From IMG/VR virus record IMGVR_UViG_3300025769_013087, positions 1 through 34,313 of that record: a DNA stretch of 34,313 bases. One strand, given 5' to 3'. This document shows, piece after piece, positions 1-33,571 of the stretch. The notes under the pieces were generated by a model. It had not been told where the DNA came from. It saw only the letters and a list, made by a program, of their open reading frames with translations, and made no database searches. Position numbers and translations under genes: made by a program. The first letter of the stretch is position 1, and the number at the start of each line of letters is the position of its first letter. Origin of the DNA: a virus.

Positions 1-786
1 ATGGCCACCGGAGCTGCCTTACGAGAGGTCAAGCTTCTAATATTTTCGGTCAGGATGTTGTACAACTGCCCGATTTATGTCGTTTGTGACGATTATGTGT
101 ATACACAGCTAAAAAACATGGGTTTTCTTTGGTTAAACCTAAAAGCGAGCGCAAATCCCGATGATTTAAAAAAAGCCGCTTACAAAACCAAATCAGTCAA
201 AAGTCACAACGATTTCCACTCCGCAGGGGCAATTTGGACTAAAATAGGCGCAATGGAGTGGGCATTGGAAGAAGAGGGTGAAACTTTGTTCTTAGACGCC
301 GATATTGTGCTAAATAAGCCAATTCACGAAGATATTCTTACTGATGTCGATGGAATGATATCTCCCCATTACCACACCGGGGATACGCTTTCCGATAACC
401 AAACATACGGAGCGTTTAACGCCGGTTATGTTTTCGCAAGGCATTCGGACTTCGCAAAGGTTTGGAAGGAAATATACCTAAACAGATCATCATTTTATGA
501 GCAGCAGGGTATGATTTGGTTTTTCGAGTATTTCGACATGGGTGTCTTTAACAAGAACCATAATATTGGATTTTGGAGATTTGCTAAAAAATGGAAAAAG
601 GGAGTCCTTAGATTAGATGACTGGGGTATAGATTGGTCAAAAGCTAAATCGTTCCACTTTCACGCCTTCCCCGAAACTTACGAAAAAGCCAACAAAGGCT
701 TAACCAGGGGCTACAACTTGCTCAAAGAAGAAATGGTTGAGCGCATTAACCCCGATTTAAAAAGAATATATAATGATCTACTCTAA
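1..786 (+). CDS. Glycosyltransferase, GT-A-like, probably 5'-truncated by the window edge
   Basis: This is probably a nucleotide-sugar-dependent glycosyltransferase. The sequence shows a DxD-type metal/nucleotide-sugar motif, D99-A-D101, inside a hydrophobic strand context (LFLDADIVLNKPI). A beta strand ending in VVCDD near residues 27-31 precedes it, and a His-containing C-terminal stretch (SFHFHAF) follows, as in many GT-A fold enzymes. Which sugar and acceptor it uses cannot be read from the sequence. The ATG at base 1 is the first base of the window, so no ribosome-binding site can be judged. The protein begins in the middle of a likely first helix, so the real start is probably upstream. 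It overlaps the next gene, a sulfotransferase, by 14 bases, and another glycosyltransferase follows that. The three therefore look like one sugar-modification cassette. No signal peptide or membrane segment is visible, so a cytosolic role is expected. Confidence 0.75.
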   Translation: MATGAALREVKLLIFSVRMLYNCPIYVVCDDYVYTQLKNMGFLWLNLKASANPDDLKKAAYKTKSVKSHNDFHSAGAIWTKIGAMEWALEEEGETLFLDADIVLNKPIHEDILTDVDGMISPHYHTGDTLSDNQTYGAFNAGYVFARHSDFAKVWKEIYLNRSSFYEQQGMIWFFEYFDMGVFNKNHNIGFWRFAKKWKKGVLRLDDWGIDWSKAKSFHFHAFPETYEKANKGLTRGYNLLKEEMVERINPDLKRIYNDLL

Positions 787-1450
787 AGAAAAAGGTTGGT
801 ACTTTATACATGTACCAAAAAACGCCGGAAGCTCCATTTTAAAACCTTACATGTCCATAGGGGGTAAATTTAAAATGATCGAAGAAGTTCTTTATCATCA
901 ACGAATATCAAATAGAGAAAAGTATGGGCTAGGGATTATAAACAAAGACGCCAACAAGGCTCACAATAAAGCTTCTTATTGGGGGGAGCGGGGCGGAAAA
1001 GGTTTAAAACCTTTAGCAATACTGCGGAATCCTTGGTCACGGTGCCTATCGATTTACTTATATAATTTAAAAATAGCTAAAGCTAATCTCGGCAAAAAGT
1101 GGGCCGACATAGATCATCCTATATTAACAGCTCAAGGGTTTAAAACTTCATGGATGCCCGGGGGGTTTTTTGTAGATGGCCACTCCGATCATGTTTCATA
1201 CAACACTCAAACGGGGAGAAACTGGGACTATAGGGATAGCCAGTTCACTTGGTTAGAGGGTTACGAAGGTAAGTGGTTTAGGTTAGAAGATGGTTTTGAG
1301 GGTTTTAGCGAGTTTACCGGCTTACCTTTACCGCCCAAGGTAAACACTACTGAAAAAGCAGATTACCGTAGATATTATGATGACGAGCTAGCGGAGAGGA
1401 TAGGTATTCTTTACGCCAAAGATGTCGAGCTAGGAGGGTACTCATTCTAA
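773..1450 (+). CDS. Sulfotransferase (PAPS-dependent, carbohydrate sulfotransferase-like)
   Basis: This likely transfers a sulfuryl group from PAPS to a sugar acceptor. Two hallmark motifs are visible. The 5'-phosphosulfate-binding loop at residues 10-22 reads FIHVPKNAGSS, with P15, K16, G19 and S20. The 3'-phosphate-binding motif at about 83-95 reads LRNPWSRCLSIY, with R85, P87, R90, S93 and Y95. Both fit the sulfotransferase family 2 (Sulfotransfer_2) pattern. At 225 residues it is short but covers both motifs. There is no signal peptide or transmembrane anchor, unlike Golgi homologues, which fits a bacterial cytosolic enzyme. It begins inside the upstream glycosyltransferase gene (14-base overlap), and its stop overlaps the ATG of a second glycosyltransferase. 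Translation is therefore probably coupled and the three enzymes likely build or modify one glycan. The acceptor is unknown. A sulfotransferase next to a phage terminase is unusual. Confidence 0.82.
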   Translation: MIYSKEKGWYFIHVPKNAGSSILKPYMSIGGKFKMIEEVLYHQRISNREKYGLGIINKDANKAHNKASYWGERGGKGLKPLAILRNPWSRCLSIYLYNLKIAKANLGKKWADIDHPILTAQGFKTSWMPGGFFVDGHSDHVSYNTQTGRNWDYRDSQFTWLEGYEGKWFRLEDGFEGFSEFTGLPLPPKVNTTEKADYRRYYDDELAERIGILYAKDVELGGYSF

Positions 1451-2247
1451 TGAAAGTGCTAATATACCAGATATACATCCCCCGGGATCCCAAGAAAAAA
1501 CACGATAAACTCATAGAAGAGTCTACTTCAAGTTTTAAGGCTTACGCTGATTACTATGGTATGGATCATATGTTTGTAACTGATCCACCTTTTAAAGGAG
1601 ATGAAATCCCAAAAGATGCGGATTGGCGTATGCAATATTATTGGTCAATGGATCTTTGTAAGCCGGAGCTTATGCATTATGATTATATCTGCCATTTTGA
1701 TGTTGATGTAATAGTAAAACTTACCGCACCCGACATCCGCGAAGAATTGAAAGGCGACTTCCTAGCGGTTAGAGAAGCAATAGATTTATTGGACCATTTC
1801 CACACCCCAATAGCTGCATTAAGAAGAGCTTTTGCGCACAGAAATGTTTCAGATTTTTATGGGTTTCCTTGGTGGAACTTCTTTAATGCCGGTGTTTGGA
1901 TAGGTTCCCCCGCTGCAAGGAAACTATTTTGGGAAAACTGGAGAGAAGACGCATTTAAAATATACGAAGAACCCGCTCCCGAATTTCCTTTTAGATTAGG
2001 TAACCCTTATAATGGGGATCAAGATATTTTTAATAATTTAATCCACAACTCAGATTTGGAATTTAATCCCTTATCTTGGAAGTGGAATGCTATGAGTGAT
2101 GCTTTAAAACACAGTAGCTTAAAAGAAGCATATGCAATCCATTATTGTGCCAAGCCGGGCAAGTTTCTTTACAACAACCCCGAATATCGGGACAAAACTC
2201 CTCTTAGTAAAGAAGCAATTAAGTTAATGAACGAACAGATGCAATGA
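1450..2247 (+). CDS. Glycosyltransferase, GT-A-like
   Basis: This is a probable glycosyltransferase of 265 residues. A DxD motif, D84-V-D86, sits in HFDVDVIVK after a hydrophobic strand. A later NAGVWIG stretch and a C-terminal AIHYCAKPGK segment are typical of GT-A enzymes that hold nucleotide sugar and metal. The N-terminus (MKVLIYQIY) is a first Rossmann-like strand, so the protein appears complete. The ATG overlaps the sulfotransferase stop (TAATG). A full AGGAGG lies at 1432-1437, but 12 bases upstream of the ATG, somewhat further than usual. The gene overlaps the terminase start by four bases (ATGA). Donor and acceptor are unknown. Possible targets are a virion protein, host lipopolysaccharide or modified phage DNA, and nothing in the sequence chooses between them. 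Confidence 0.78.
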   Translation: MKVLIYQIYIPRDPKKKHDKLIEESTSSFKAYADYYGMDHMFVTDPPFKGDEIPKDADWRMQYYWSMDLCKPELMHYDYICHFDVDVIVKLTAPDIREELKGDFLAVREAIDLLDHFHTPIAALRRAFAHRNVSDFYGFPWWNFFNAGVWIGSPAARKLFWENWREDAFKIYEEPAPEFPFRLGNPYNGDQDIFNNLIHNSDLEFNPLSWKWNAMSDALKHSSLKEAYAIHYCAKPGKFLYNNPEYRDKTPLSKEAIKLMNEQMQ

Positions 2248-4001
2248 CAGACAAGGACCAACAAATAGCCAACCTTATCAGAATCGACCCCGAGGTGTGG
2301 TTCTCAACATTTGCCGTCATTAAGGATAAGAGGGGTAAAGATATTAAACCTAAAGCGAATACGCTCCAAAAGCGTATGTTCGCTCATTATAGAAAATGCC
2401 AAGTAGAAAAAAAGCCGTGCAAGATGATCATCCTAAAACCCCGTCAGAAGGGGGCGAGTACATGCGCCCAAGCTCTGACTTACCACCACATGAGGAAGCA
2501 CGAGAATCTGGCGGGCTCGCTGATGGGGGATATTGCAGGGACGAGCGACAAAGTCTTCGAGATCTATCGGAGATACGCCGAGAACGACGCCTTTCCGTGG
2601 GACGATACCGGAACAAACCTGGAGGATGGGGGCAATCTGGCAGATTTAATAAAGCTAAGAACCAGAAGCGCGTACGGAAAGGAAACCGCCGGATCGAAAA
2701 ACGCAGGCCGAAGCGGAACGATTCAGGTAGGAAATATGACTGAGGTCGCTTTCTGGCCTAATACGGGACAAAAAGACCCCGCTCTTGGTTATCTACAGTC
2801 GCTGTACGACGGAGACAATGTTTCGCTAGTTGTTGCCGACTCTACACCGAATGGCCCAGCCGGTTGGTTTTATAACACATGGGTGCAGGACAATGAATGG
2901 GCTAAGATATTTGCCGCTTGGTGGGAGTTCGAAGATTCTGAAATACCTTTCAAATCTGAAGACGAGCTTCAGGATTTCAAGGATTCTATGACCGATGACG
3001 AAAAGTCCGAAGTAGAGCGTTTCGATGTAACATGGGAACAAATGCATTGGAGAAGGAGAACTCTTCAGGACAAGTGTAATGGTGATGTTTCTAAGTTCCG
3101 TCAGGAGTATCCATCGGATCCCGAAGAATGTTTCTTAATGTCATCCCGTCCAAGGTTCCAGATAGAAGTATTGAAAGAAATGATGGATGCCGCACCAAAT
3201 CAGCATAAACAGGTCGGAAACCTAAGTTTACAGTCTAACAAAACGGTGAGTTTTAACATGGATAGGGGAGGCTCTTGGGTTGTGTACGACGAGCCTGAGC
3301 ATGACTCTAAATACATTATCGGAGTTGATACCTGTACGGGTGAAGATCAACAAATGCAGGGTTTGGCGGCCGATCCAGACTATCATAGCGTCCAAGTTTG
3401 GCGAGCTCCGTACGAAGATTGGAACGGAGACTGGCATGTAGCACGAATGGTTGCAGTCCACCATTCCCGTGCAGAGATTGGAGTGCTCGCGGAGGAGATT
3501 ATTGCAGCGGCTCAATGGTACGGCGGAGCTTTTGTTGTCCCCGAAGTCAATAATACGGGGTTAGCTGTCGTAAAATACCTATTGGAGGCAGGGGTTCACA
3601 CCTATCAAAGGCGTAAGATCAACAATTCAACGGGTATGGTTGAGAAGTTCTTCGGTTGGCAGACTGATAAAGTTACAAGAAAGACATTGATCGATCATAT
3701 GGCAGCCGAATTAATGGAAAGAAACTTTGATATCCCGGATGAAGACATCCTAAAAGAGATGAAAGTGTTCGTAATTAACGAAAAAGGTAAACCCGAAGCT
3801 GCTCCCGGTCACCATGATGACCATGTTCTCGCTGCCGCCTTGTGTTTATACAACATGGAATCCGCTTCTTCGTACAAGGGACATAAGAAAAAGAAGATTA
3901 CAACAAGGATGCTTCGGAAAGATCCCAGTTTAATGTGTCCCGATGGATTTATGCGAGTTCCGCTCGGAAAAACATCTAATTACAAGCGGTTGAGGGTTTA
4001 A
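2244..4001 (+). CDS. terL: Terminase large subunit (TerL), packaging ATPase and nuclease
   Basis: TerL drives genome translocation into the procapsid and cuts the concatemer. The N-terminal ATPase shows a Walker A loop at residues 65-73 (KPRQKGAST, with K69, G70 and S72), a Walker B-like strand ending in TEVAFW with catalytic E167, and a coupling motif DSTPNG at 199-204. The C-terminal RNase H-like nuclease shows the acidic triad positions D362 (IIGVDT), E434 (VVPEVNNTG) and D525/D526 (GHHDDHVLAAAL). At 585 residues it has the normal length and appears intact. The ATG overlaps the stop of the upstream glycosyltransferase (ATGA). No small terminase gene is recognisable in the window, and it may lie upstream. 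The next genes are two very large non-canonical proteins rather than the portal, which starts about 15 kb downstream. Confidence 0.95.
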   Translation: MTDKDQQIANLIRIDPEVWFSTFAVIKDKRGKDIKPKANTLQKRMFAHYRKCQVEKKPCKMIILKPRQKGASTCAQALTYHHMRKHENLAGSLMGDIAGTSDKVFEIYRRYAENDAFPWDDTGTNLEDGGNLADLIKLRTRSAYGKETAGSKNAGRSGTIQVGNMTEVAFWPNTGQKDPALGYLQSLYDGDNVSLVVADSTPNGPAGWFYNTWVQDNEWAKIFAAWWEFEDSEIPFKSEDELQDFKDSMTDDEKSEVERFDVTWEQMHWRRRTLQDKCNGDVSKFRQEYPSDPEECFLMSSRPRFQIEVLKEMMDAAPNQHKQVGNLSLQSNKTVSFNMDRGGSWVVYDEPEHDSKYIIGVDTCTGEDQQMQGLAADPDYHSVQVWRAPYEDWNGDWHVARMVAVHHSRAEIGVLAEEIIAAAQWYGGAFVVPEVNNTGLAVVKYLLEAGVHTYQRRKINNSTGMVEKFFGWQTDKVTRKTLIDHMAAELMERNFDIPDEDILKEMKVFVINEKGKPEAAPGHHDDHVLAAALCLYNMESASSYKGHKKKKITTRMLRKDPSLMCPDGFMRVPLGKTSNYKRLRV

Positions 4002-4024
4002 GTACAAAAACCTAAGCTTGCTTG

Positions 4025-6910
4025 ATGGCTACTAACAATGATTTCTCACATTTAGATCTAGATAAGCTAGCGCAGGAGTTTATAACAGCGATTGTACGGC
4101 ATGGCACCGATGATATGGCCATACGCAGAATCGCAAGACTGGCCCAGCGGTACGGGAGTGAGTTTGTTAATGCGCTAGACGCAAATCCCATTATTCAAAA
4201 TGCGCCTCAGGGGTCTCCCCCTTCCGGACCCAGTATGAGAGAACGGTTAATCGACGACCACGATTACGGGGAAGACGAAATCCTGGCCGCTTTCGGTTTT
4301 GCAACTGAGGATCTAGTTGGCGACTCCCCTTCGGAATCAGACGCTAAAGCCCGTGGCGAGTTAAACAAATCGAATTTTAAGCGGTACGGTGTCGGAGGCA
4401 CTGCGACCCGTGTAAAAACTGGTAACCCCGATTACACCTACGACAAAAACAACCCCGGCCATCGAGAGGAGAGCACTGCTTACTTTAAACCAAGTGCAGA
4501 CAAGCGAACCGAAGACAACCCCGAAGGTGTAGATTGGGGGCAGGCCCATCCCCGTTGGCCAAAAGATGCAGATGGGAAACCACTCCCGAAAGATGCTAAT
4601 GGGAACCCGGTAATGCCCGAGGGAGATCAACAAAAAACTCCCGACCCAAAATTAGATTCTGATGGTAACCCTATACCTTCAAAACCCGAAGCCCCTGCCG
4701 AACAAGAAGAAAAACCGGCAGAAGACGAGACAGTAAATCCCGAAGACGCCGCCCCCAAAGGCCCGCCCGCGGCATCAATACCTGACCCCCGACAAGAAGA
4801 GATAAAAGGCACAGGTCGTGGTTTACAGAAGAAGCCTACCAGGAAGCCTCGCATGGGTAACCCCGGAAGCTCTATCCCCGATCAAGCGGGCGCTCGTGAT
4901 CGTGCCGCTATTGAGAATTGGCAAGGCAAGAAGCTTAAAAGAGCTATTAGGCAAGATGAGGATATGGATCGTAAAAACGACATTATCCGAGATTGGGTAG
5001 ATAGTATAAAAGGACCCGGAGCTTATGACGCGGCAACTCCTGAGGAAAAAGCTAATGCCGCCGCTAATTATATTGCTAAATCAAAAGCTAGCCCAACCCA
5101 TCCCGACAACAACCCCGATTTTGTACCTAAAGCCTCCGCTTCCGAGCAGGCCGAGGCTGACAGAATAGCGGGAGGTCCTTCGAAAAGAGCAGATGATGAA
5201 GTCCGTAGAATATTAGATGAGAGAAAAGCTAGGGGTGAAGATGTAGCTTCTACGGATACTTACGAAGGCAACCGACCAAAAGCAACAGCTTCCATGGACA
5301 ACCCGGGTGGCGAAGTAGTCGCCGAAGGTTCGATGATGAGCGCTAATGTAGGTTCCCCTCCTCAGCTTGAGTCCGGCCAAGTACCAATGCAAGCACCTGG
5401 GCCAAATGGCTTACCTACTATGAATGGGAAAACCGTCCCATTTAACCCAATTACGGGAGAAGGTATCGCATACCCAACTCAACCTCAACCTAGAACTCAA
5501 GTACCTCCCGCAGACTCCGACCCTACCGCGGGCTTACCTCCTTTACCCCCAAAGCCCAGCCAACCTAGAACACTGGTACCTCCCGCAGACTCCGATCCTA
5601 CTGCGGGCTTGCCTCCCGTACCTCCTAAACCTACTAGTTTGGACGACCCAAGTGTTCCCGATTATTCGGATAAGGTCGTAAATGCTAGCCCCATAGATGA
5701 CCCAAATACGCCTGACTACTCAGACAAAATAACGGATGTACCTGATTACTCGGATAAGATTGTAGATGTACCTAGTCCAATAGACGACCCAAGTGTACCT
5801 GATTACTCAGATAAGATTGTAGATGCACCGCATCCAACTTTAGATGATCCAAGCGTACCCGATTATTCAGACAAAATCGTAGATGTACCTAGCCCAATAG
5901 ATGATCCAAATGTACCCGATTATTCGGACAAAATCGTAGATGTACCTAGCCCAATAGATGATCCAAATGCACCCGATTATTCGGACAAAATCGTAGATGT
6001 ACCAAAACCTGGAGACAAGGCTCGTGAGTACTTAGCTAATTTAGAAAAAGGAATCGATAAGAGACCTGATGGGGCGGCTCCCTCAACCCCAGCTCCAGCT
6101 CCAGTTCCAGCTCCAGCTCCAGCCCCAGTTCCAGCTCCAGCTCCAGCCCCCGTAGTATCAATGGAAAAGCCTGCCCAAGACCCTTCAAGGTCACACAGCA
6201 CACCTGAGGGTAGGGAGCGCCCCATCACTCAGACTGAGTTACTTTTTAACTCTATCCGAGATCACTACGCGAGAATGGGGGAGGATATAAGTAATCCAAA
6301 TTCTCCCGGTATGGAGAAAGCTCGTAGAGATTTTACATTGATGCAAAATCAATGGAAGAACATGCACCCCGCTGAGAAAGACAATTTTATTAACAGTAAA
6401 ATAATGTCTCATAATGAGCACCGTCCAAATCCTCTTACCGGTAATCAACAAGATATTGATGATTACAAAAATAAGCGGGATATGGATAATATGGACTGGC
6501 GCGGAAGAATGCAGTCCGTTGGTCTTGGGCAAGAGGACATGGTAAGAAGAGGTGTCAACCAAGACATTCTCGACAGAACAGGTGGCAGAGGCCCAAGTTT
6601 TCACGCTAACCCTAAATACGGAAACGCAAAAGCAGCCGGTGATGCTTATCAAGACTGGCGTGGCGGATTGACCCCTTCTCAAACTAAGCAACACGATGAC
6701 TTTTTATTCCCCGAAGGTAGACCATCTCCGGCAGCTATTATGGAAACAAAAAGGCGAGATATTATAAATGACGATATGGTAAACAGGGTTCCAAAATTTG
6801 AAACAGGTGGTCTTAGGGCTGAGTCAGCTATAAATGATTTTAATAAAAAGTCTAGATACGAGCAGTCTAAAAGGCTTGGAATGAATCATCTGACTAATTC
6901 CTTTCTTTAA
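4025..6910 (+). CDS. Large disordered, repeat-bearing phage protein of unknown function
   Basis: This 961-residue protein matches no family I recognise. It is hydrophilic and rich in Pro, Asp, Lys, Asn and Gly. A short ordered-looking helix lies at residues 1-60, followed by long acidic, probably disordered stretches. Two near-identical 23-residue Pro-rich units lie at about 489-536, seven copies of the hexamer PDYSDK at about 540-660, and a Pro-Ala-Val run at about 689-710. A more ordered C-terminal part of about 230 residues is rich in Asn, Met and Arg and ends in a Lys/Arg/Asn-rich tail. The frame can be opened at a TTG at 4022, but the ATG three bases later at 4025 is preferred. It lies between TerL and the giant polyvalent protein, five bases before the latter's start, so it may be a virion or ejection partner (inference). 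No signal peptide or membrane segment is seen. Confidence 0.8.
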   Translation: MATNNDFSHLDLDKLAQEFITAIVRHGTDDMAIRRIARLAQRYGSEFVNALDANPIIQNAPQGSPPSGPSMRERLIDDHDYGEDEILAAFGFATEDLVGDSPSESDAKARGELNKSNFKRYGVGGTATRVKTGNPDYTYDKNNPGHREESTAYFKPSADKRTEDNPEGVDWGQAHPRWPKDADGKPLPKDANGNPVMPEGDQQKTPDPKLDSDGNPIPSKPEAPAEQEEKPAEDETVNPEDAAPKGPPAASIPDPRQEEIKGTGRGLQKKPTRKPRMGNPGSSIPDQAGARDRAAIENWQGKKLKRAIRQDEDMDRKNDIIRDWVDSIKGPGAYDAATPEEKANAAANYIAKSKASPTHPDNNPDFVPKASASEQAEADRIAGGPSKRADDEVRRILDERKARGEDVASTDTYEGNRPKATASMDNPGGEVVAEGSMMSANVGSPPQLESGQVPMQAPGPNGLPTMNGKTVPFNPITGEGIAYPTQPQPRTQVPPADSDPTAGLPPLPPKPSQPRTLVPPADSDPTAGLPPVPPKPTSLDDPSVPDYSDKVVNASPIDDPNTPDYSDKITDVPDYSDKIVDVPSPIDDPSVPDYSDKIVDAPHPTLDDPSVPDYSDKIVDVPSPIDDPNVPDYSDKIVDVPSPIDDPNAPDYSDKIVDVPKPGDKAREYLANLEKGIDKRPDGAAPSTPAPAPVPAPAPAPVPAPAPAPVVSMEKPAQDPSRSHSTPEGRERPITQTELLFNSIRDHYARMGEDISNPNSPGMEKARRDFTLMQNQWKNMHPAEKDNFINSKIMSHNEHRPNPLTGNQQDIDDYKNKRDMDNMDWRGRMQSVGLGQEDMVRRGVNQDILDRTGGRGPSFHANPKYGNAKAAGDAYQDWRGGLTPSQTKQHDDFLFPEGRPSPAAIMETKRRDIINDDMVNRVPKFETGGLRAESAINDFNKKSRYEQSKRLGMNHLTNSFL
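5489..5632 (+). repeat. Two-copy 69-bp Pro-rich coding repeat, 75-bp period
   Basis: Two direct copies at 5489-5557 and 5564-5632 each encode 23 residues of the form PRTxVPPADSDPTAGLPPxPPKP. They differ at only two residues and several silent bases, which suggests a duplication followed by selection on the protein. They abut the PDYSDK array. Confidence 0.9.
5639..6003 (+). repeat. PDYSDK coding tandem array, seven copies
   Basis: Seven copies of PDYSDK occur, mostly within a unit that reads DDPxVPDYSDKIVDVPSPI, about 19-20 residues long. The second and third copies are closer together, apparently through loss of part of a unit. Silent differences are common (gat/gac, tcg/tca, ata/atc), so the array is old or selected at the protein level. 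Each unit has one Tyr in an acidic, Pro-flanked setting, like a short linear binding motif. Function unknown. Confidence 0.92.
6089..6154 (+). repeat. Pro-Ala/Pro-Val codon repeat
   Basis: A run of alternating CCA and GCT/GCC/GTT codons encodes PAPAPVPAPAPAPV-type sequence. This is a stiff extended Pro-rich linker between the PDYSDK array and the ordered C-terminal part of the protein. The low-complexity DNA could vary in length by slippage. Confidence 0.9.
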
Positions 6911-19154: not shown

Positions 19155-21191
19155 GTGAAGAATACAAATCTAATACTTAACAAAGAACAGGAGGAAAAGC
19201 TCGTTCAGTACGCGCTGGATAGAGTTGAAGCCCTTAAGGAAGACAACGCGATTAGGATTAAATCTGATAAACTTTCTTGGAAAACTTATGAAAATGATCG
19301 GTTTGATCGGGATTCGCTAGACGGTATTTATTCACAATCAAATGTTTCAGTACCCTTGACCAGTTTAGTCGTAGATCATTTCTTAGCTAGAGCTGAAGAT
19401 GAAATAACGGGAACTAGCCCATACTTCGAATTTAAACCGCAAGGGCTCGCAGATGCTGATTCCGCTGAAGATTTTAACAGATATTTCCATTGGAAACTAG
19501 AAGACAAAGGCCGTATCCGTGAAAGGCTTGAGGAAAGTTTTCTGCATATATTTATCCAAAGAGCCGCTATATTTAAATCCGTTTATGAAGAGCGTAAATC
19601 TACATGGTACGACATGGAGCGTAGCGCTTTGTTTGATAACGAGATTCAAGAGTTTGTAGAGATCTTAGACCAAGGCCCGGTAATTGAAGGAGAGTCTAAT
19701 CTATTCCCCGAAGTTAACCCTGAAACCGGCGAAACGGAGTCTCGTCTAGAAGCCGACCCGTCGTTCGTTGTCACGCCGGGTAAACATGAATTTAAACCGT
19801 TTCCCGAAGGCGTACCGACTCAACAGATAAAGTACAAAGGTCCTCGGTCGGTGGTCGTTGATTCCGATAGATTCTTAGCTCCAAGCTCCGTTGAGCACCT
19901 AGAATACGCCGATTTTATAGCCGAACTTTACGACAAAAATCTGCACTGGTGTGAAGAGATCTTTCTTAACAGAGAGTGGTTCTCATTCGCCGATTATTTA
20001 GAAGCTGTCAAAAAAGATGCTAATCCAAGGACTGATTCTGAAAAGAATGAAGAGTCAAAGGACACCGTAAAATGGGATCAGGAAAAAGTACCTATGATTC
20101 CTATCGTAGAGTGTTGGATATCTAAAGACATTCTCGGCACCGGTGAGCCACAAGATTTCTGTGTGTTTATCGACACGGAATTAAAAAAAGCTATTTTTTA
20201 CGAGTACACCGCTAAATTAACTCCCGATAACAAACCTCCTTATGTAACAGTTGCTATCGGTAAAATGAAGAACCGTTGGTGGGGTCCGAGTTTACCTGAA
20301 AAAATCAGGACATATCAGGAGTATATCGATAAACAATTTAATTCAGAGAGCTATAGAAACGAGCTTTCATCTAATCCAATTATAGGTGTTAACCCTCAAG
20401 CCGTCGAAGATGAGCCCGAAGATGTAGAGCTTCATGCGGGTAAGTTATTTCAGCTCAAGGATCAGTATAGTATGGAAGACTTTCTATCGTTTTCCGCTCT
20501 TCCTAATTTAGACAACAAAACTCAAGAGTTAATAGATTTCGTATTCGGAATGGTTCAGCTTTGGCTCGGCGTATCGAACATGGCGCAAGGTGACTACCAA
20601 GCGTTATCTCCCGCTAATACAGCTACGGGAGTTGAAGCTACACTTAACGAAGCTTCTAAAATAGGACGCCGTTGGATGCGTAGAATTGTACGCGGTTTTG
20701 AAGAGCACTTGGCAAAATTGATTAAAGTATCCATGGCAACTATGGACGAAGCCGAGATCTATGAGTACATGGAAGGAGATGTAACAGCTTTTGCCGAAAT
20801 GACCCCCGAGCGTATTGCTAACCTAGAAATGAATTGTAAAGTTATTCTTTCTCAGGATCAGGGTCAAAGAGCTATCGAAAAAGCTAACTTAGCTCTCCAA
20901 GTACAAGAGAGATTTTTACAACACCCACCGGAAATCAGACCGTTTAGCCGTCCTATGTTTAAGCGCATTTTGGACGCTCTAGGCTACGAAAATACGGAAG
21001 AGCTTCTACCCGAAGCCGCACCTCCCGATCCTAAAAGCGAAGCTGAGATTATGAAACTCATGGCGGATGCTCAAGGTGCCGGTGGCGGTGGACAAGCTCC
21101 CGAAGCCGGTGATCAAATTGCAGCACAAGTCCAGGGAATGGGTAACAGCAATCCACAGGGCGAAAATCAATATCAACAACAAACAGGATAA
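19155..21191 (+). CDS. Portal protein (head-tail connector)
   Basis: This is the probable dodecameric portal through which DNA is packaged and ejected. The 678-residue length fits podovirus portals. Recognisable features are an N-terminal helix rich in Lys and Asp, then a conserved-looking VPLTSLVVDHFLARAEDEI segment. The block GKMKNRWWGPSLPEKIRTYQ is followed by a long helix. A later ANTATGVEATLNEASKIGRR segment resembles the portal stem/tunnel helix region, followed by WMRRIVRGFEEHLAKLI. The C-terminus is a Gln/Asn/Gly-rich tail. The start is GTG at 19155. No in-frame ATG lies nearby, and the ATG at 19148 is closed at once by a stop. It follows the giant gene by 11 bases and precedes a string of small genes by 5 bases. 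Confidence 0.85.
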   Translation: MKNTNLILNKEQEEKLVQYALDRVEALKEDNAIRIKSDKLSWKTYENDRFDRDSLDGIYSQSNVSVPLTSLVVDHFLARAEDEITGTSPYFEFKPQGLADADSAEDFNRYFHWKLEDKGRIRERLEESFLHIFIQRAAIFKSVYEERKSTWYDMERSALFDNEIQEFVEILDQGPVIEGESNLFPEVNPETGETESRLEADPSFVVTPGKHEFKPFPEGVPTQQIKYKGPRSVVVDSDRFLAPSSVEHLEYADFIAELYDKNLHWCEEIFLNREWFSFADYLEAVKKDANPRTDSEKNEESKDTVKWDQEKVPMIPIVECWISKDILGTGEPQDFCVFIDTELKKAIFYEYTAKLTPDNKPPYVTVAIGKMKNRWWGPSLPEKIRTYQEYIDKQFNSESYRNELSSNPIIGVNPQAVEDEPEDVELHAGKLFQLKDQYSMEDFLSFSALPNLDNKTQELIDFVFGMVQLWLGVSNMAQGDYQALSPANTATGVEATLNEASKIGRRWMRRIVRGFEEHLAKLIKVSMATMDEAEIYEYMEGDVTAFAEMTPERIANLEMNCKVILSQDQGQRAIEKANLALQVQERFLQHPPEIRPFSRPMFKRILDALGYENTEELLPEAAPPDPKSEAEIMKLMADAQGAGGGGQAPEAGDQIAAQVQGMGNSNPQGENQYQQQTG

Positions 21192-21681: not shown

Positions 21682-22055
21682 TTGGAAAAACTACAACTAC
21701 TTTCGTTGGAAAGAAAGCAACCGACCCCGCACCCACTAAGTTTTCGGCAGTAGCTCCCGTAAAACTTACGGATTCGGGGTCTATTAAATATATCAGCCAT
21801 TATAAATTCCCTACTGCACCAAATAATGGTCACATCAGAGATTACACTTTCCCCGCCGGTAGCGGGCCACAAATTATTGCTTTAAAAACTACAGACCGTC
21901 TCGTTAAGGGCACAATTTACCGTATTAATTTAGTGCGCTTTCAAAGTACTACTATTTTAAGATTTTTAACTCTTTCTAATAATCAAAGATTCTTATCCTT
22001 AAATAAGCGCGGTGATGAGTTTGAAGTTTTTTCAGAGCCTAAACCTGTGAAATGA
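21678..22055 (+). CDS. Hypothetical phage protein, probable beta-rich
   Basis: This 125-residue protein has a Thr/Lys/Ala/Pro-rich N-terminus (MIGKTTTTFVGKKATDPAPT) and a beta-strand-rich middle (TIYRINLVRFQSTTILRFLTLSNNQRFLSL). No membrane segment or catalytic motif is seen. It overlaps both neighbours by four bases (ATGA junctions). A small beta-rich protein between portal and scaffold could be a capsid decoration or minor structural protein, but no family is recognised. Confidence 0.65.
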   Translation: MIGKTTTTFVGKKATDPAPTKFSAVAPVKLTDSGSIKYISHYKFPTAPNNGHIRDYTFPAGSGPQIIALKTTDRLVKGTIYRINLVRFQSTTILRFLTLSNNQRFLSLNKRGDEFEVFSEPKPVK

Positions 22056-22537
22056 GTAATCGGGGTTATATAGTCTTAATTTTAGATATATTACTAATAG
22101 CGGCAATGCTGCTTTTGGTTATGGGGTGTAAAGCTTCATCTTGGTATCCAGTCATGGGCTCAGTAGCCGGAGGGGCTAGTGGTGCGGTTCTTGGGCCAGC
22201 GGGTGGTGCTGTTGGCGCCGGTGTAGGTTATGCTGGTGGTAAGACCGCTCAGATGATGACCGAGAATGAGGATCTTAAAGAAACCGTAGATGCTTTGACC
22301 CACGGAGATGTCGATAAATTGGTTCAAAAGGGCTTAGAATCTCAAGCTAGTGGTTTTGAAGAGTTTACGGATTCTATAAAAAAAATACTAACGGTAGCGG
22401 GCTCCGTTTTACTAGCTTATCTTTGTATTCCTATCCTGCTAGCTAGAAAAACAGCCCAAAAATGCGCACGAACTGAAGCAGAGAAACAACTTACGCGCGC
22501 GCCCTTCCCAATAAAACCACCGAATGAAAAACTTTAA
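22052..22537 (+). CDS. Putative membrane lipoprotein with glycine zipper
   Basis: This 161-residue protein has an N-terminal hydrophobic segment at about 6-25 ending in LLVMGC. C26 is a plausible lipid-attachment cysteine, although Met at -2 is not the usual lipobox residue. A Gly/Ala-rich glycine-zipper-like region follows at about 36-65 (GGASGAVLGPAGGAVGAGVG). After a charged stretch comes a second hydrophobic helix at about 112-131 (ILTVAGSVLLAYLCIPILLA). The C-terminus is basic and Pro-rich. It could act in lysis (spanin-like), in DNA passage through the envelope, or as an inner-membrane exclusion factor. The sequence does not decide. The ATG overlaps the upstream stop by four bases, and the following tiny gene starts inside it (14-base overlap). 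Confidence 0.7.
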   Translation: MSNRGYIVLILDILLIAAMLLLVMGCKASSWYPVMGSVAGGASGAVLGPAGGAVGAGVGYAGGKTAQMMTENEDLKETVDALTHGDVDKLVQKGLESQASGFEEFTDSIKKILTVAGSVLLAYLCIPILLARKTAQKCARTEAEKQLTRAPFPIKPPNEKL

Positions 22538-24034: not shown

Positions 24035-25552
24035 ATGGCTAATAAAGCAGCAACCGTAGCAGCACAGTCAGCAGCCGCAACTTTCGGTAATGTCGACTTG
24101 CTCAATACAAACACTAACTACAGCACTTCCGCAAACAAGGGCGGTACTACTATCTTTGCCGATGGTGATTTGCGCACCAGACTTTGGTCTGAGCTCGTAA
24201 CTCGCGACGCTCGGGAAAAGAATGTATTCGCAAAATTTATCGGATCTGAAGGTTCCGGTTCTCCAGTAGTTGAAAAACGCGATCTTAGCGCAGGCGGATC
24301 AGACAAAGTAACTTTTACAACAGTTGCTCCAATTCGCGGACAGGGTGTTCGTGGGGAACAAATCCTCAAGAATAAAACCGGAAAGCTAAAATTCGGCGCA
24401 TTTAGCGTTGAAGTGGATCTTATCCGTCACGCTGTTGCTTGGACGCAAGTTGTAAAACTTATGCGCTTCACAGGCAAAACTATTGACCAGCTTTCAGCCG
24501 AAGTTATGTCCGAATGGGCAGGACGCACTGAACAGGATCATATCCAAATGGTTCTTCGTGACACCTGCTTGAACAACTCTACTTCAAACCTCATCTCAGG
24601 TTACGGAGCAGGACCTAATCTTCTGTACACAGAAGGGTTAAGTACTGATATTATTCAGGAAGCTAAACAAGCATTGATCGCCCAAGGTGGTGAGCCAATG
24701 AATGTTGGCGGTGACGACAAAACCGAAATTCCCGGTTACTTGTTCTTCGCTCCTGACGCTTGCTTACGCCCACTTCGTTCAGATCCTGATTACCTCGAAG
24801 CTATTCTTCAAGCTGACGAGCGTAGTAGCGCTAACAAATTGTACAGCGGTAATTATGCAATGTGGGACGGTAATATTATTGCCAATCACAATGTGATTAT
24901 CGACACAGCTGACGGACGCCAAGGTTCTCCTTTGCTTCCAACCGCTCTTATTGGCAATGCTCTTACTATCGCTACCGCGGGTACGCTTACCCTTGGTTAT
25001 GACTGCTTTGCAAATTTCACAGGTTTCGACGCAAAGATCCCAGGCGGAGGCGGATTCAAGTATGCAACTACTGCTACTGGTGCAGCTAGTATTGACGGAT
25101 ACATTCTCGCAGTTTCTCCTACTGGGGACTACGGTTGTGCTTCTTATAAGGTAAATACCGGTAACCAACTTACCGGTCTTGTTCGCGTAAGCAGCGGAGG
25201 TCAGCTCGCAGCAGCATCAAGCGCCGGCACTCCTACAAAGAACAGCATTAACTTGGCAGTAGCGGGAACAATCCCAGCCGGAACCGTTATCTACCAATGT
25301 AACTCTCTTGGAACTCCAATCGGGTATGCGTTGGCAATGGGTAAGAGTGCTCTTTACTACGCTAAAGGTGCAGTATCTAACGAGCAAATCTTCCACTATG
25401 ACGATTTCGCTAATAGTGGAAACGAAGCTCACTTGTCAGCTGTAGGTATCCAATCCGTTTACGGAATGGCTGCTTATCAAGACACCAACGGAAGAATTCC
25501 AGGTGCTCAGCTTGTCGAAGCAGTTCGTCAAATCCCCGGATTTAGCTATTAA
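24035..25552 (+). CDS. Major capsid protein, N4-gp56/DUF4043-like
   Basis: This is the main shell protein. The N-terminal half resembles the N4-gp56/DUF4043 capsid family, which adopts the HK97 fold. It has a DLRTRLWSELVTRDAREKNV helix, a KFIGSEGSGSPVVEKRDL strand region, a DKVTFTTVAPIRGQGV segment and AFSVEVDLIRHAVAW, followed by the spine helix with SAEVMSEWAGRTEQDHIQM. At about 315-435 there is a Gly/Ala/Thr-rich, beta-rich stretch (GYILAVSPTGDY, LVRVSSGGQLAAASS) that looks like an inserted surface domain. The final 70 residues return to a shell-like sequence. An AAGGA at 24020-24024 lies 10 bases before the ATG. The gene follows the scaffold by 36 bases and ends 40 bases before a strong terminator, which suits a highly expressed gene. 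Confidence 0.85.
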   Translation: MANKAATVAAQSAAATFGNVDLLNTNTNYSTSANKGGTTIFADGDLRTRLWSELVTRDAREKNVFAKFIGSEGSGSPVVEKRDLSAGGSDKVTFTTVAPIRGQGVRGEQILKNKTGKLKFGAFSVEVDLIRHAVAWTQVVKLMRFTGKTIDQLSAEVMSEWAGRTEQDHIQMVLRDTCLNNSTSNLISGYGAGPNLLYTEGLSTDIIQEAKQALIAQGGEPMNVGGDDKTEIPGYLFFAPDACLRPLRSDPDYLEAILQADERSSANKLYSGNYAMWDGNIIANHNVIIDTADGRQGSPLLPTALIGNALTIATAGTLTLGYDCFANFTGFDAKIPGGGGFKYATTATGAASIDGYILAVSPTGDYGCASYKVNTGNQLTGLVRVSSGGQLAAASSAGTPTKNSINLAVAGTIPAGTVIYQCNSLGTPIGYALAMGKSALYYAKGAVSNEQIFHYDDFANSGNEAHLSAVGIQSVYGMAAYQDTNGRIPGAQLVEAVRQIPGFSY

Positions 25553-28888: not shown

Positions 28889-31800
28889 ATGAGCGAGGAA
28901 ACTGCCGAAGAATTAAAAGAACGGTTAATTGCTCTAGAAACTCAAGTTGAGGAGATAATAGCCGAAAATAGTGACCCCGAAAGTATATTTGAGGGTACTT
29001 TAAATGTTGTAGAAAGCCCCGCGGGTAGTAGACAAACTATCATACATTTTGTAGATGTCGGTGATTATGGGCTGTCCCCACCAACTTCGAGAGGTTTAGG
29101 GCACGCTTGTTTCCAAAAAATTATAGATGATGAGTGGGATCCTAATAAAAGGAAAAGAGATAGATTAATATCTCACGGAGATCTTATAGTAATAAAAGGT
29201 TCACCTTGTCTGTATTATTGTTATGTGGGGTTAATCGACAGAACTAGCGACAGCCCTTCAGGTTTTCAAAAAGAAGCAAATATAGACGGGACTATTAAAA
29301 ATAAAAGAGAGAGCGGTGAAACCCGTCTTGAGCTTATCGTTTGGACTGAGACATTTCCCGGCACGGGAGTTGTTGTAAAGGCGGAGTTTTCAAAGACGAC
29401 TCTTAGCCCCGGTTCTCAGCAAGATATAAACCTAGACGATTTAACAATCACCCCGGACGACCCCCAGCCTGAAGAAGTAGATTTAAAACTTCCCGAGATT
29501 GAGGTAAAAGACACTACTCCAGACCCCGCACCCGAACCTATAGATGTAGAGCTTCCTACTAAAGTAGAATTTAAGCCTTCGGAAACTGACGCTCACCTTG
29601 ATCCGCCTTGCACCTTTTACAGTCAAAAAATTACGGGTGATAAAGTACCAAATGGTGAGGATATTGAATTGGATATGTTTTCCTTATCCTCAACCACTCC
29701 TACTCAAGGCGATAAAGTAGTTTTTCACGCCTTTAAGCTGGAAGTAAAAAAGACCAATACGAAACCGAAAGCAACATTACAAGCTACAAAATTAGACATA
29801 GATCAGGATTTCTTAGATCCAACTAAAAGTACAAAATCTAAATCAGCTACTGCCAAGCCGCAGACTTTTAAAGTAAGCGAGGTAGATGTAAAACGGACAC
29901 CTTTAACTGCGGTAGATTTTAGCACCGCTAGCCCATCAGTAACTCCCGGTACATGGGGTGAGGTCACTAATTATGACTCTACTGATTGGAATATTCACGA
30001 AAATGTTTCACAAGGGGAGCTAGATTGCGCATATGGCAGTTTTGAAACTAATAGAACTACTATTGATGATTCGGGTACTGAGACGCCTACTAATGTTTAC
30101 TCTAATGAGCTAACAATTACGAACGAGACTCCAAACGGCAACCCTTCTACCGAAACTATTGAGATGTTTGACGCAACTCATAGTTGGACAGGGCCGGAGA
30201 CCACGAATGACTATTACTTTGGTGCTCCAACCTCAAACGGATCTACTGCTCAAGCTCGAAGCTACCCCGCCTGGGCTCCAAATACGCAATATACTAAAGG
30301 TCAAGTAGTCACTCACGGCGGGAAAACATGGAAAGTTACCGATGACCATTTGTCGGATCCCGCTGGTCAGGAAGTACCCGGAGTAGATGTAAATTGGGAA
30401 GAAAGAACCGATGATTTAGAGAAGTTTAATTTTACTACGGACTTAGATATAAATATCGATTGTGAAGATGTAACTTGGGATTACGACAACGATATAAATG
30501 TTTCCGAAATAACTGAGTTAAGTTTTAACGCACCTAGTCCAAGTCAGAAAGATAATTTTGATGTAATTACCAATGTAACCGCCGGGACGCCAACTAATGT
30601 TAATAAAGGTGTTAAAAGTACTAATAAATTTACCGAGGTTACCGCGTTAAATCCGATACTGGGGACAAAGCAAAAGCTTGAAGAGCACACCGTTCTTAAG
30701 TCTTTAGAAAATGCTTATGTAGATAAAGGAACAAAGGCAAAAGACGACGAATTCAATATACTAACCGGTCTTGGGGTTAATGAAAATCTCGGAAAAGATT
30801 TTGACACACTTGCTTTAACAAGCTCAGCAGCATCATCTACGGATGATTGCTTTGCTTTTGATGTTAAAAAAATCGTAGTTAATGAGAGAAGACAATACTT
30901 CAATGAAAGGTCTGCGACCACCTACACTCAGAATTGGGATTTTTATGTAAAGGGCACGCCGGTAAAAATAACTACTTATGAGCAAAAAGATAATTTAACT
31001 TTAGCGAACATCACTAAAGAAATAAAGGTTACCGAGTATGAAAATAATAATGCGTTGAACGCATCAATTTCTAATATAAACATAACAGAAGTTGCGGTAG
31101 ATCTTAAAATGAAAGCGGTCACTCACCGCATACAAAATACAATTAAGAAATTTTCGTACGATGCAACTTGGCAACAAATACCGGCGACAATTTATAATAC
31201 TACTTTTGATTTTGATAAACATAAATTAACAATTACCAGAAGACCCGGTGAGTGGGTCGGGACTAAAAAGACTGCTACTTTTAGCAGTTATATTTACAAA
31301 TTCGCTCAAACTAAGCGTACGGATGTTATAAAAGCAAAGTCGGTAACTGTTTCAACGGACGAAGAAACTACGGTTACCTCAGAGCCTTGGAAAGTTTATT
31401 TTGAATGTTTAAAACGAGAAAGACTGTACTGGCGGGAAAAAGACACTACTGTATCTTTTGACGACCCTAAAACGGTAACTCTTACTCCTTATAAAAGTGA
31501 TTTATCATATCAAAACAAAGAAGTCACACTTACACCGCGTGAAACTGAGTTAAAATATCAAAATAAAGAACTAGAGATAAGCTCGGAAGATTATGAATTT
31601 AATTTCTCTAATGTTTATGAGCTTACTTTAGAAAACAAGACAACTACTTTAACGCATGACAACCCTAAATGGGCTAAGTTTAAACCGTCTAAGATAACGA
31701 TAAAATTTGAAGACGAAAAAGAAGTAACCCTTACTCCAAAACAATATAAATTTATAATGGAGCGTAAGGCGCTTAAGCTTACCTCTAAACAGTTAGAGAT

Positions 31801-33571
31801 AGTTTACAAAGAGGCTAAGCAATATAAAGCTATCCCGAAGAACTTTACATTTAAACAATTTAAAAAGCTTATAAAATATAAGCCAGTTACAGTTACAAAT
31901 ACGGAAGGTTCGTTAGATCTAAATACTTCAGAGTGTCAAACACTCAACGGAACAGGGGGCATGGGCCCTACTACTACCGAAAATATGGGGTCAATAACTG
32001 TGGAACCCGGCTCAGAACCCGAAGAAAAAATAAGCAGTACAGAGTTTAAGGAAATACCGATAAGCCCCCCACCTGAACCTAAAACTTACCCGGTAGACAG
32101 CTTAAAAATCGAAGAGCCTACTGAACAGCCCGAAGATATTGACGAAGACATAGACAGCTTAAAAGTAGAATGCGAAGAAGTAGATGAGTATTATAAGCAA
32201 GAAGACATCGAATTTGACGCTTACGAACTTACTACGGGTGACAAATCACCTATACCCGACATCGATATTGATAGCACATCGGTAGGTACAAAATCCACAA
32301 CTATAAACGACGCGGAGTCTACAAAAATAGATTGGGATATAAGTAATATAGATCCAAAGGAAGAAACTAAATACATCAGAGAACTTGGATTTTATATTAA
32401 AGATACCGACCCTAATAAAGTTACTAAAAGTATTAAAGAATGTGAAGTAGCTAAAACCGACGACAGTGATGTTCCCGACGCGGAAATACTTTCCACCAGA
32501 GTAGGTAAAAATCCTCTTACTAAACCCACGGATTTTAATGTAGAAGGTACGAAAATCTGCATAACTGAAACTGTAGACAATAGCGGTAACACAGTGCCCG
32601 ATGATTCGGCGACTATTCACAGTGCCGAGTATGTAAAAGGTACGGACAACCCGCAACCCGACAAAACAATAGACAGTACATCAGTTTCAGTTACCACTGA
32701 TAATTCCCACACAGTCCCCGCCGATAAGTTTGAGACGACCATAACTCCTCAAAGTACGAATTATGATCCGATGGAAATGACTTCAATAACATTTGATGAG
32801 GTTGAACCTTATTATGTTAGCGAAATATGTTATTTCAGTAGAGTAGATCTAAACAAAAACTACGGTACATCTTACGACGAGAGTGCTTCTTTTAATGTTA
32901 ATGAAATAACTAGAACACCCGGTTCTCCTAATGCTATAACTTGGAAAGGAGCTCTGTACGATAAAGTTGATATTTCGAGCGTTAACTCTCCGACCTTAAA
33001 ATTTGATAGGTACAAGTACACAATAGATGCTACGGATCAAAGTCTTCAGGCTTCAGAAAAAGCTCGATTGACTACGGAAGAAATTGAGCTAGGGGAAGAG
33101 CAATCTACATCTTCATATTTTGATTACCCCGAACTTTTGCTTGAAAATTCGAACATTACTAAAAAAGCATATGTTCCAATTTTGGACAAGGCTCCGCTCA
33201 GCGATACATTAAAAGTAATAAACCCTGCAGCCTATGCTAATGGAAGTACCTTGCTTAACCCCGAAGGTGTTGATTGTGTAAACAACCAAGTTTTTATTAA
33301 GTTTAGCTTCCTTGTAGACCAATACACTGTAAAATGCGGAGTCTTAACTAAAAAATCAGACAGCACACAAAAGGTTTATGGTCACCTAAAAGGCCCCGAA
33401 GTTGGAGATGAGGTTTACCAACAAGAAGTTTCGGTATGTGTGTATGTCGGTGGTGGTCAATATGAGACAAAAACTATTAATGTATTAACCACCTCTGTAC
33501 CCGATGGTCAAACTAACGAAGACTCTGTAGGAAGACTTATGAAGGGTCTTCCTTGTGGTACTCCGAGTTAA
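28889..33571 (+). CDS. Giant beta-strand-repeat protein with CBM5/12-like module, candidate tail fibre or spike
   Basis: This 1560-residue protein probably makes a long appendage. It opens with a short coiled coil (EELKERLIALETQVEEIIAE) and a globular domain to about residue 160. After that it is mostly beta-strand repeats rich in Thr, Lys, Asp, Glu and Pro. In about 185-350, hydrophobic/charged strands alternate with Pro/Thr-rich turns (VDLKLPEIEVKDTTP, KVVFHAFKLEVKK). Residues 459-505 resemble a CBM5/12 (chitin-binding type 3) fold, with W462, Y-T-K-G-Q-V-V, W480 and W503. Around 863-1004 there is a 16-17-residue repeat beginning VTLTP or similar. Acidic IDSTSVG-type units follow at about 1110-1290. 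No membrane segment or catalytic site is seen. The ATG directly follows the upstream TAG, and its own stop overlaps the next gene (TAATG). A fibre role is inferred. Confidence 0.6.
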   Translation: MSEETAEELKERLIALETQVEEIIAENSDPESIFEGTLNVVESPAGSRQTIIHFVDVGDYGLSPPTSRGLGHACFQKIIDDEWDPNKRKRDRLISHGDLIVIKGSPCLYYCYVGLIDRTSDSPSGFQKEANIDGTIKNKRESGETRLELIVWTETFPGTGVVVKAEFSKTTLSPGSQQDINLDDLTITPDDPQPEEVDLKLPEIEVKDTTPDPAPEPIDVELPTKVEFKPSETDAHLDPPCTFYSQKITGDKVPNGEDIELDMFSLSSTTPTQGDKVVFHAFKLEVKKTNTKPKATLQATKLDIDQDFLDPTKSTKSKSATAKPQTFKVSEVDVKRTPLTAVDFSTASPSVTPGTWGEVTNYDSTDWNIHENVSQGELDCAYGSFETNRTTIDDSGTETPTNVYSNELTITNETPNGNPSTETIEMFDATHSWTGPETTNDYYFGAPTSNGSTAQARSYPAWAPNTQYTKGQVVTHGGKTWKVTDDHLSDPAGQEVPGVDVNWEERTDDLEKFNFTTDLDINIDCEDVTWDYDNDINVSEITELSFNAPSPSQKDNFDVITNVTAGTPTNVNKGVKSTNKFTEVTALNPILGTKQKLEEHTVLKSLENAYVDKGTKAKDDEFNILTGLGVNENLGKDFDTLALTSSAASSTDDCFAFDVKKIVVNERRQYFNERSATTYTQNWDFYVKGTPVKITTYEQKDNLTLANITKEIKVTEYENNNALNASISNINITEVAVDLKMKAVTHRIQNTIKKFSYDATWQQIPATIYNTTFDFDKHKLTITRRPGEWVGTKKTATFSSYIYKFAQTKRTDVIKAKSVTVSTDEETTVTSEPWKVYFECLKRERLYWREKDTTVSFDDPKTVTLTPYKSDLSYQNKEVTLTPRETELKYQNKELEISSEDYEFNFSNVYELTLENKTTTLTHDNPKWAKFKPSKITIKFEDEKEVTLTPKQYKFIMERKALKLTSKQLEIVYKEAKQYKAIPKNFTFKQFKKLIKYKPVTVTNTEGSLDLNTSECQTLNGTGGMGPTTTENMGSITVEPGSEPEEKISSTEFKEIPISPPPEPKTYPVDSLKIEEPTEQPEDIDEDIDSLKVECEEVDEYYKQEDIEFDAYELTTGDKSPIPDIDIDSTSVGTKSTTINDAESTKIDWDISNIDPKEETKYIRELGFYIKDTDPNKVTKSIKECEVAKTDDSDVPDAEILSTRVGKNPLTKPTDFNVEGTKICITETVDNSGNTVPDDSATIHSAEYVKGTDNPQPDKTIDSTSVSVTTDNSHTVPADKFETTITPQSTNYDPMEMTSITFDEVEPYYVSEICYFSRVDLNKNYGTSYDESASFNVNEITRTPGSPNAITWKGALYDKVDISSVNSPTLKFDRYKYTIDATDQSLQASEKARLTTEEIELGEEQSTSSYFDYPELLLENSNITKKAYVPILDKAPLSDTLKVINPAAYANGSTLLNPEGVDCVNNQVFIKFSFLVDQYTVKCGVLTKKSDSTQKVYGHLKGPEVGDEVYQQEVSVCVYVGGGQYETKTINVLTTSVPDGQTNEDSVGRLMKGLPCGTPS
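31475..31900 (+). repeat. 16-17-residue beta-strand coding repeat
   Basis: Adjacent units at 31475-31522 and 31523-31570 encode VTLTPYKSDLSYQNKE and VTLTPRETELKYQNKE, identical at 11 of 16 positions. More divergent units follow, including VTLTPKQYKFIMERKA at 31724-31771. The period fits two short strands per unit, as in a fibrous or solenoid beta structure. The nucleotide copies are diverged, so this is a protein-level repeat. Confidence 0.8.

Follow-up and report, generated by a model that had tools for sequence, protein, structure and literature searches.

A predicted glycosyltransferase-sulfotransferase cassette among the virion genes of uncultured tailed phages

Three overlapping genes in front of the terminase gene

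The DNA analyzed here (the window) is a whole IMG/VR-type virus record, linear and 34,313 b long. Its first 2.25 kb hold three overlapping genes on the plus strand, which run into the gene of the large terminase subunit, TerL. The first, gtA (1..786), encodes a predicted GT-A glycosyltransferase of the glycogenin/LgtC/LARGE1-like kind and is cut at its 5′ end by the contig edge. It is followed by sulT (773..1450), encoding a predicted PAPS-type sulfotransferase of 225 aa, and by gtB (1450..2247), encoding a predicted GT8-like glycosyltransferase of 265 aa. The overlaps are 14 nt between gtA and sulT, 1 nt between sulT and gtB, and 4 nt between gtB and the TerL gene (2244..4001, plus strand; PHROG 24361, 6e-16; PHROG 2, 2e-12). 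The initial annotation had described a sulfotransferase between two DxD glycosyltransferases, overlapping TerL, and this arrangement was confirmed by the ORF coordinates, the motifs and the TerL PHROG matches. Around these genes we computed gene order, conservation, selection (for the comparable pairs), fold class, cofactor motifs, gene fusion and virion-gene neighborhood.

The ORF at 1-786 is a real gtA gene but not a complete one. A record near-identical to the window, L002, reaches 2.2 kb further upstream. There, the full gtA occupies 2203-3006 and encodes 267 aa from a GTG start, which lies 6 codons (18 nt) before window base 1. Upstream of gtA is a short ORF (L002:2009-2206; 65 aa as called, 61 aa from ATG). 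It is coiled-coil-like (VVIDTAQAALRRA...) and directly precedes gtA in the window lineage; an ORF of the same type is also present at L112:7115-7405, a few genes past gtB. The ORF at L002:853-1431, upstream of the trio, looked lysozyme-like by eye. A promoter scan of L002 found no more sites than were found in shuffles.

Both PAPS-binding motifs reported earlier for sulT are present: the 5′-PSB motif FIHVPKNAGSS at residues 11-21 and the 3′-PB motif ILRNPWSRCLS at residues 83-93. PKNAGSS agrees with the K-x-x-G-[ST] loop of the PAPS-dependent sulfotransferase superfamily, and RNPWSRCLS agrees with its R...S motif. The key residues are invariant; positions without variation in 14 sulT homologues are F11, H13, P15, K16, N17, G19, H64, R85, P87, R90 and S93. 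sulT matched PHROG 3347 over its full length (7e-7), a family whose name, 'Galactose-3-O-sulfotransferase', comes from annotation only; no PHROG, however, matched gtA. Against Pfam PF03567 (Sulfotransfer_2), sulT reached E 0.049 and 14.2 bits, below the gathering cut-off of 22, and was therefore not counted as a member. The same cut-off was passed by its relatives in L037, L046 and L072 and by the second copy in L041.

The AF2 model of sulT had a pLDDT of 83. Among the Foldseek matches, the best 50 listed PDB entries were all sulfotransferases, with a modest best E of 1.6e-3. Structural comparison with VIA gave Z 8.4 for heparan sulfate 6-O-sulfotransferase (176 residues, rmsd 4.3) and 8.1 for heparan sulfate 2-O-sulfotransferase. 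These two enzymes had the top structural scores over about 170 residues, yet their identity to sulT is only 13-15%, and their Z scores are within 1 of those of other sulfotransferases and so give no guide to the substrate. In 50,697 named phage records sulT found only weak partial matches (26-28% identical), the nearest being in Stenotrophomonas phage DLP6 and Pelagibacter phage Mosig, over part of the protein. The motif residues, the PHROG profile and the modeled fold all fit a sulfotransferase profile. The assignment of sulT to the predicted PAPS-type sulfotransferases is well supported as an enzyme class.

The DxD motif of gtA is FLDADIVL, in which D105 and D107 were invariant in 21 sequences. 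gtA belongs to no family in Pfam, PHROG or NCBIfam, and the GT8 family of Pfam (PF01501, Glyco_transf_8) matched none of four gtA members. Its AF2 model (pLDDT 91) was matched by Foldseek to LARGE1 (6.8e-9), glycogenin (2e-7) and LgtC (5.5e-7), and by VIA to glycogenin (Z 17.5, 224 residues, rmsd 3.5), LgtC (17.3) and LARGE1 (16). Judged from the model, gtA is clearly a predicted GT-A fold glycosyltransferase, GT8-like in fold only. The DxD motif of gtB is HFDVDVIV, with the further motifs FNAGVW, GDQD and IHY; D84-x-D86 and D190-Q191 were invariant among its homologues. Glyco_transf_8 matched one of four gtB homologues (1.8e-5), and the gtB of the window had no match. A profile link between gtA and gtB around the DxD motif was weak (E 2.5e-4, probability 43%). 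A tblastn search of the 50,697 named phage records found no match for gtA, gtB or two of the fused proteins described below, and a sequence-profile search of the PDB gave nothing credible for gtA, sulT or gtB. Taken as predictions from sequence and structure, the enzyme classes of the trio are well supported.

Distribution of the trio and its gtA-sulfotransferase core

The initial annotation had proposed a search for the trio in related phages, and the same order was indeed found in other viral contigs. The order gtA-sulT-gtB before TerL also occurs in L011, L022 and L023, whose TerL proteins are 88-94% identical to that of the window and which look like one lineage. In a different phage group (L007 and L008), the same order lies behind the capsid genes, at about 47-54% identity. 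L004 and L005 have gtA and sulT without gtB, and L006 is a fragment with sulT-gtB. The full trio was also found on a phage contig, L112 (CACFTI010000022.1), in the single-cell genome of the uncultured Verrucomicrobia bacterium AG-908-P09. This could be a clue to the host of the L007-type phages, or a free particle might have been sorted together with the cell. A host origin of gtA was considered and rejected: among 273 genomes from the taxonomic order of this bacterium, only the AG-908-P09 phage contig has gtA, and two others gave weak partial matches. The trio keeps its order across two unrelated phage groups and the Verrucomicrobia phage contig; it is no chance insertion. In L008, gtB is fused behind a methyltransferase-like domain (10670-12040; Methyltransf_12, 2.5e-6, below the cut-off), and gtA and sulT appear frame-shifted, perhaps through sequencing errors.

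In twelve further TerL relatives (L009, L010 and L012-L021; 76-90% identical), none of the trio genes lies beside TerL. L009, L010, L012 and L021 instead encode, directly before TerL, a basic protein with RRWKC or a close variant at its C-terminus, and its stop overlaps or adjoins the TerL start codon. In L002, the short ORF, gtA, sulT and gtB sit exactly between an RRWKC-type stop and TerL, and comparison of the junctions placed the insertion point precisely at the TerL start codon. The whole 70.9-kb record of L019 contains neither gtA nor sulT. As close TerL relatives lack the trio at the exact junction, the trio is accessory. Absence from close relatives, which had been named as a possible objection to a dedicated pathway, thus applies to many TerL relatives, but not to L011, L022 and L023, where the trio is kept.

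The other objection, compositional signs of chance insertion, found no support: GC content is unremarkable and purifying selection is seen where it is measurable. The trio genes have a GC content of 0.39-0.41 and the window as a whole has 0.43; the trio values are inside the range of the window's other genes, and the gene of a 1560-aa protein in the window also has 0.39. Ka/Ks was 0.05-0.13 for the trio genes in the pairs where it was computable, namely the window and L011 (gtA only), and L007/L112 and L025/L026 (gtA, sulT and gtB). For sulT and gtB of the window and L011, Ks was saturated and Ka/Ks was not computable. Purifying selection is therefore measurable for the trio genes of the relatives and for gtA of the window lineage. 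Comparison of the window with L011 gave 92% identity for gtA and 89% for TerL, but only 56% for sulT and 68% for gtB. The divergence of sulT and gtB goes far beyond that of the flanking gtA and TerL, which implies an exchange of cassette parts.

An alignment search with gtA gave 63 viral loci, which together with L112 made 47 non-redundant loci at 90% identity. Their ORFs were scanned with sulfotransferase profiles built for this analysis. A sulfotransferase-like domain is fused to gtA in 14 of the 47 loci (L071, L080, L050, L088, L053, L089, L091, L095, L098-L100, L103, L107 and L110). The sulfotransferase is the next gene after gtA in 13 and lies at most 6.5 kb downstream in 11, and the profile scan detected none in the remaining nine. 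Separate sulfotransferase hits numbered 0 in the 277 kb upstream of gtA and 30 in the 314 kb downstream; the profiles were partly seeded from the scanned islands, which inflates their sensitivity but not this upstream/downstream contrast. At 27 loci, the distances of gtA and those of sulT were correlated (Mantel r 0.81, 0 of 9999 permutations), in part owing to the separation of fused from unfused lineages.

In the fused proteins (about 540-770 aa; 564 aa in L091), an N-terminal extension precedes the gtA domain, and a sulfotransferase-like domain forms the C-terminal part. Pfam found no sulfotransferase in the fused C-terminal domains. By hhalign, the fused domain matched the sulT profile with 94.7% (E 6e-8), against 0.4% in a control comparison, and the fused domain of L071 matched PHROG 3347 weakly (0.0012). 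The islands of other phages use different Pfam families (Sulfotransfer_2, Sulfotransfer_3/1 and Sulfotransfer_4). gtA and the sulfotransferase, fused or adjacent in many other marine phages, are the core of the cassette, to which gtB, methyltransferases or further glycosyltransferases may be added.

Some further fusions were seen. In L084, L085, L092, L097 and L109, gtA is fused to another long C-terminal domain, apparently a further glycosyltransferase; separate downstream sulfotransferases are present in L085, L092, L097 and L109, and none in L084. In L041, a 922-aa protein combining methyltransferase and GT2 (11443-14211) lies between two sulfotransferase genes and adjoins a tandem gtA-gtA fusion.

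Virion-gene surroundings

The window contains a portal protein gene (19155..21191, plus strand; PHROG 1216, 7e-22) and is therefore a virion structural module. The major capsid protein is of the N4-gp56 type (24035..25552, plus strand; Pfam Phage_capsid_3, 7e-9); its match to NCBIfam TIGR04387 (5.6e-12) was below the cut-off of that family. The 1560-aa protein (28889..33571, plus strand) carries a CBM_5_12 carbohydrate-binding module at residues 461-492 (Pfam, 7.7e-8) and is possibly a tail or host-contact protein. The capsid protein and this 1560-aa protein are candidate acceptors. Downstream of TerL lies the gene of a Pro/Ala-rich protein of 962 aa with seven PDYSDK repeats (4022..6910, plus strand), and positions 6916-19143 form a single ORF of 4075 aa.

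The position of the module within the virion genes differs among phage groups. The window group has it in front of TerL, and in the L004/L007/L112 group it comes, with overlaps of 4 nt, after the genes of the portal, capsid and adaptor. T4-like phages (L091, L099, L107 and L088), a label that like the names of the T4-like neighbors was given by inspection and not by profile, have the fusion flanked by collagen-like or 'RQNFLASH'-type fiber-associated proteins on one side and by neck-like genes on the other. These fused loci resemble the islands of the pelagimyophages, marine T4-like phages in which GT8 genes lie among fiber, collagen-repeat and concanavalin-like genes (PMC7029224); the phage of the window, however, is not T4-like. 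Glycosyltransferases inside a structural module, a criterion for virion glycosylation, were found at the examined islands of unrelated phages.

No structural protein was found in all of the cassette-bearing phage groups, and thus none stands out as an acceptor common to them. Apart from the trio, the two trio-bearing groups clearly have just one protein of 60 aa or more in common, a glycine-zipper lipoprotein-like protein (window 22052-22537). It was rejected as a shared acceptor, since it is also present (76% identity) in L019, which has neither gtA nor sulT, and is thus not linked to the trio.

Proposed pathway and its alternatives

A dedicated sugar-plus-sulfate pathway with the virion genes, as initially suggested, is well supported by the gene order, the fusions in 14 of 47 loci and the islands in structural modules. 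We infer that the enzymes form a joint pathway with the reaction order given here, that they are expressed late, that their acceptor is a virion protein and that the phage is affected. gtA, with its GT-A fold and GT8-like structure, would transfer a sugar to the acceptor, and sulT would move sulfate from host-made PAPS onto the sugar added by gtA; an APS kinase is encoded in the AG-908-P09 single-cell genome. The fusion of gtA with a sulfotransferase suggests that sulfation comes directly after the transfer of the sugar. The GT8-like gtB might then add a further sugar. Since the module is consistently found among virion genes, the most likely acceptor is a virion protein of the capsid, neck, fiber or tail, and the particles would carry a short sulfated glycan altering surface charge, adsorption or recognition. 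We lean, though not strongly, towards reading the trio as an accessory cassette for sulfoglycosylation within a late virion-building operon, acting most likely on a virion protein. The broader proposition, that a widespread, unnamed two-enzyme module, in which a new glycosyltransferase family is coupled or fused to a sulfotransferase, equips the particles of uncultured, mostly marine tailed phages in several unrelated lineages with sulfated glycans, is tentative, and its chance seems somewhat short of even.

The trio might instead place a sulfated sugar on the envelope of the host (on its LPS, capsule or exopolysaccharide), causing superinfection exclusion or receptor hiding, and the linkage to virion genes would then stem only from late expression or from a site that tolerates insertions. 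LPS is a substrate of GT8 enzymes such as LgtC, and LgtC was among the top structural matches of gtA. The accessory nature of the trio also fits a host-range trait. The GT8 glycosyltransferases in the host-recognition region of pelagimyophages have been interpreted in this way, as modifiers of the host O-antigen or O-chain, in a text on these phages with no word starting 'sulfo' (PMC7029224). However, inspection of the genes around the islands revealed no membrane anchor, flippase or polymerase, and in T4-like phages several gtA with the N-terminal extension lie directly between fiber-like and neck-like genes. A late change of the envelope would, moreover, shield the cell only briefly. We therefore regard an action on the host envelope as unlikely, although its chance is appreciable. 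That gtA, sulT and gtB are unrelated adjacent morons with no joint pathway seems improbable. The far greater divergence of sulT and gtB than of gtA and TerL between the window and L011, and the absence of gtB from L004 and L005, would be expected of morons, but gtA and a sulfotransferase are fused or adjacent in 27 of the 47 loci, with the sulfotransferase only downstream, and their distances are correlated.

Two other substrates have still smaller chances. As a tyrosine-protein sulfotransferase, sulT could target the PDYSDK repeats in the 962-aa protein, whose seven DYSD motifs are above chance expectation; acidic residues beside tyrosine resemble the tyrosine-sulfation consensus. The counterpart of this protein in the trio-bearing L023 lacks the repeats, however, and on this ground they were rejected as a general sulfation target. 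Carbohydrate sulfotransferases also headed the structural matches and the PHROG name is Gal-3-O-sulfotransferase, both being weak guides to the substrate. Tyrosine sulfation is thus very improbable. Slightly more remote is the construction of a hypermodified, glycosylated and sulfated DNA base. Base-modification systems of phages that include glycosyl- and sulfotransferases have been put forward (Iyer et al. 2013, cited in PMC10829341), but the trio genes sit in late structural modules, and the scanned island genes include no base hydroxylase, hydroxymethylase or DNA-binding domain, a result of limited weight since the window has no replication module.

Relation to known systems and significance

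The glycosyltransferases encoded by mycobacteriophages are placed with virion genes, as are those of the trio. A passage of PMC12619734 on mycobacteriophage virion glycosylation (citing Freeman et al. 2023) reports glycans on the capsid and the tail tube and mentions no sulfotransferase. In Moumouvirus australiensis, a fibril glycan cluster with a sulfotransferase and an APS kinase (ma457/ma461) has glycosyltransferases beside the sulfotransferase, and sulfation of the fibril sugars was proposed (PMC10117803). The fibril clusters of Megavirinae, however, belong to eukaryotic giant viruses with sugar-nucleotide and PAPS genes of their own, and sulfation is likewise only proposed there. Viral sulfotransferases have been catalogued as auxiliary genes (PMC8290583, PMC10829341). 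No paper describing a coupled gtA-sulfotransferase module was found in the searchable literature, which mostly excludes subscription papers. The gtA-sulT module would be a form of phage-encoded glycan modification.

We know of no report of sulfation of bacteriophage particles. The fusion in many T4-like phages, together with the varied sulfotransferase families, suggests repeated selection for a sulfated end product, and the fused enzyme offers a single protein for testing the activity. If the module acts on hosts, it would give infected cells a new way of making sulfated envelope sugars. If the sulfated glycans are on virions, they would bear on the surface charge of marine phages, their sticking to hosts and their avoidance of loss.
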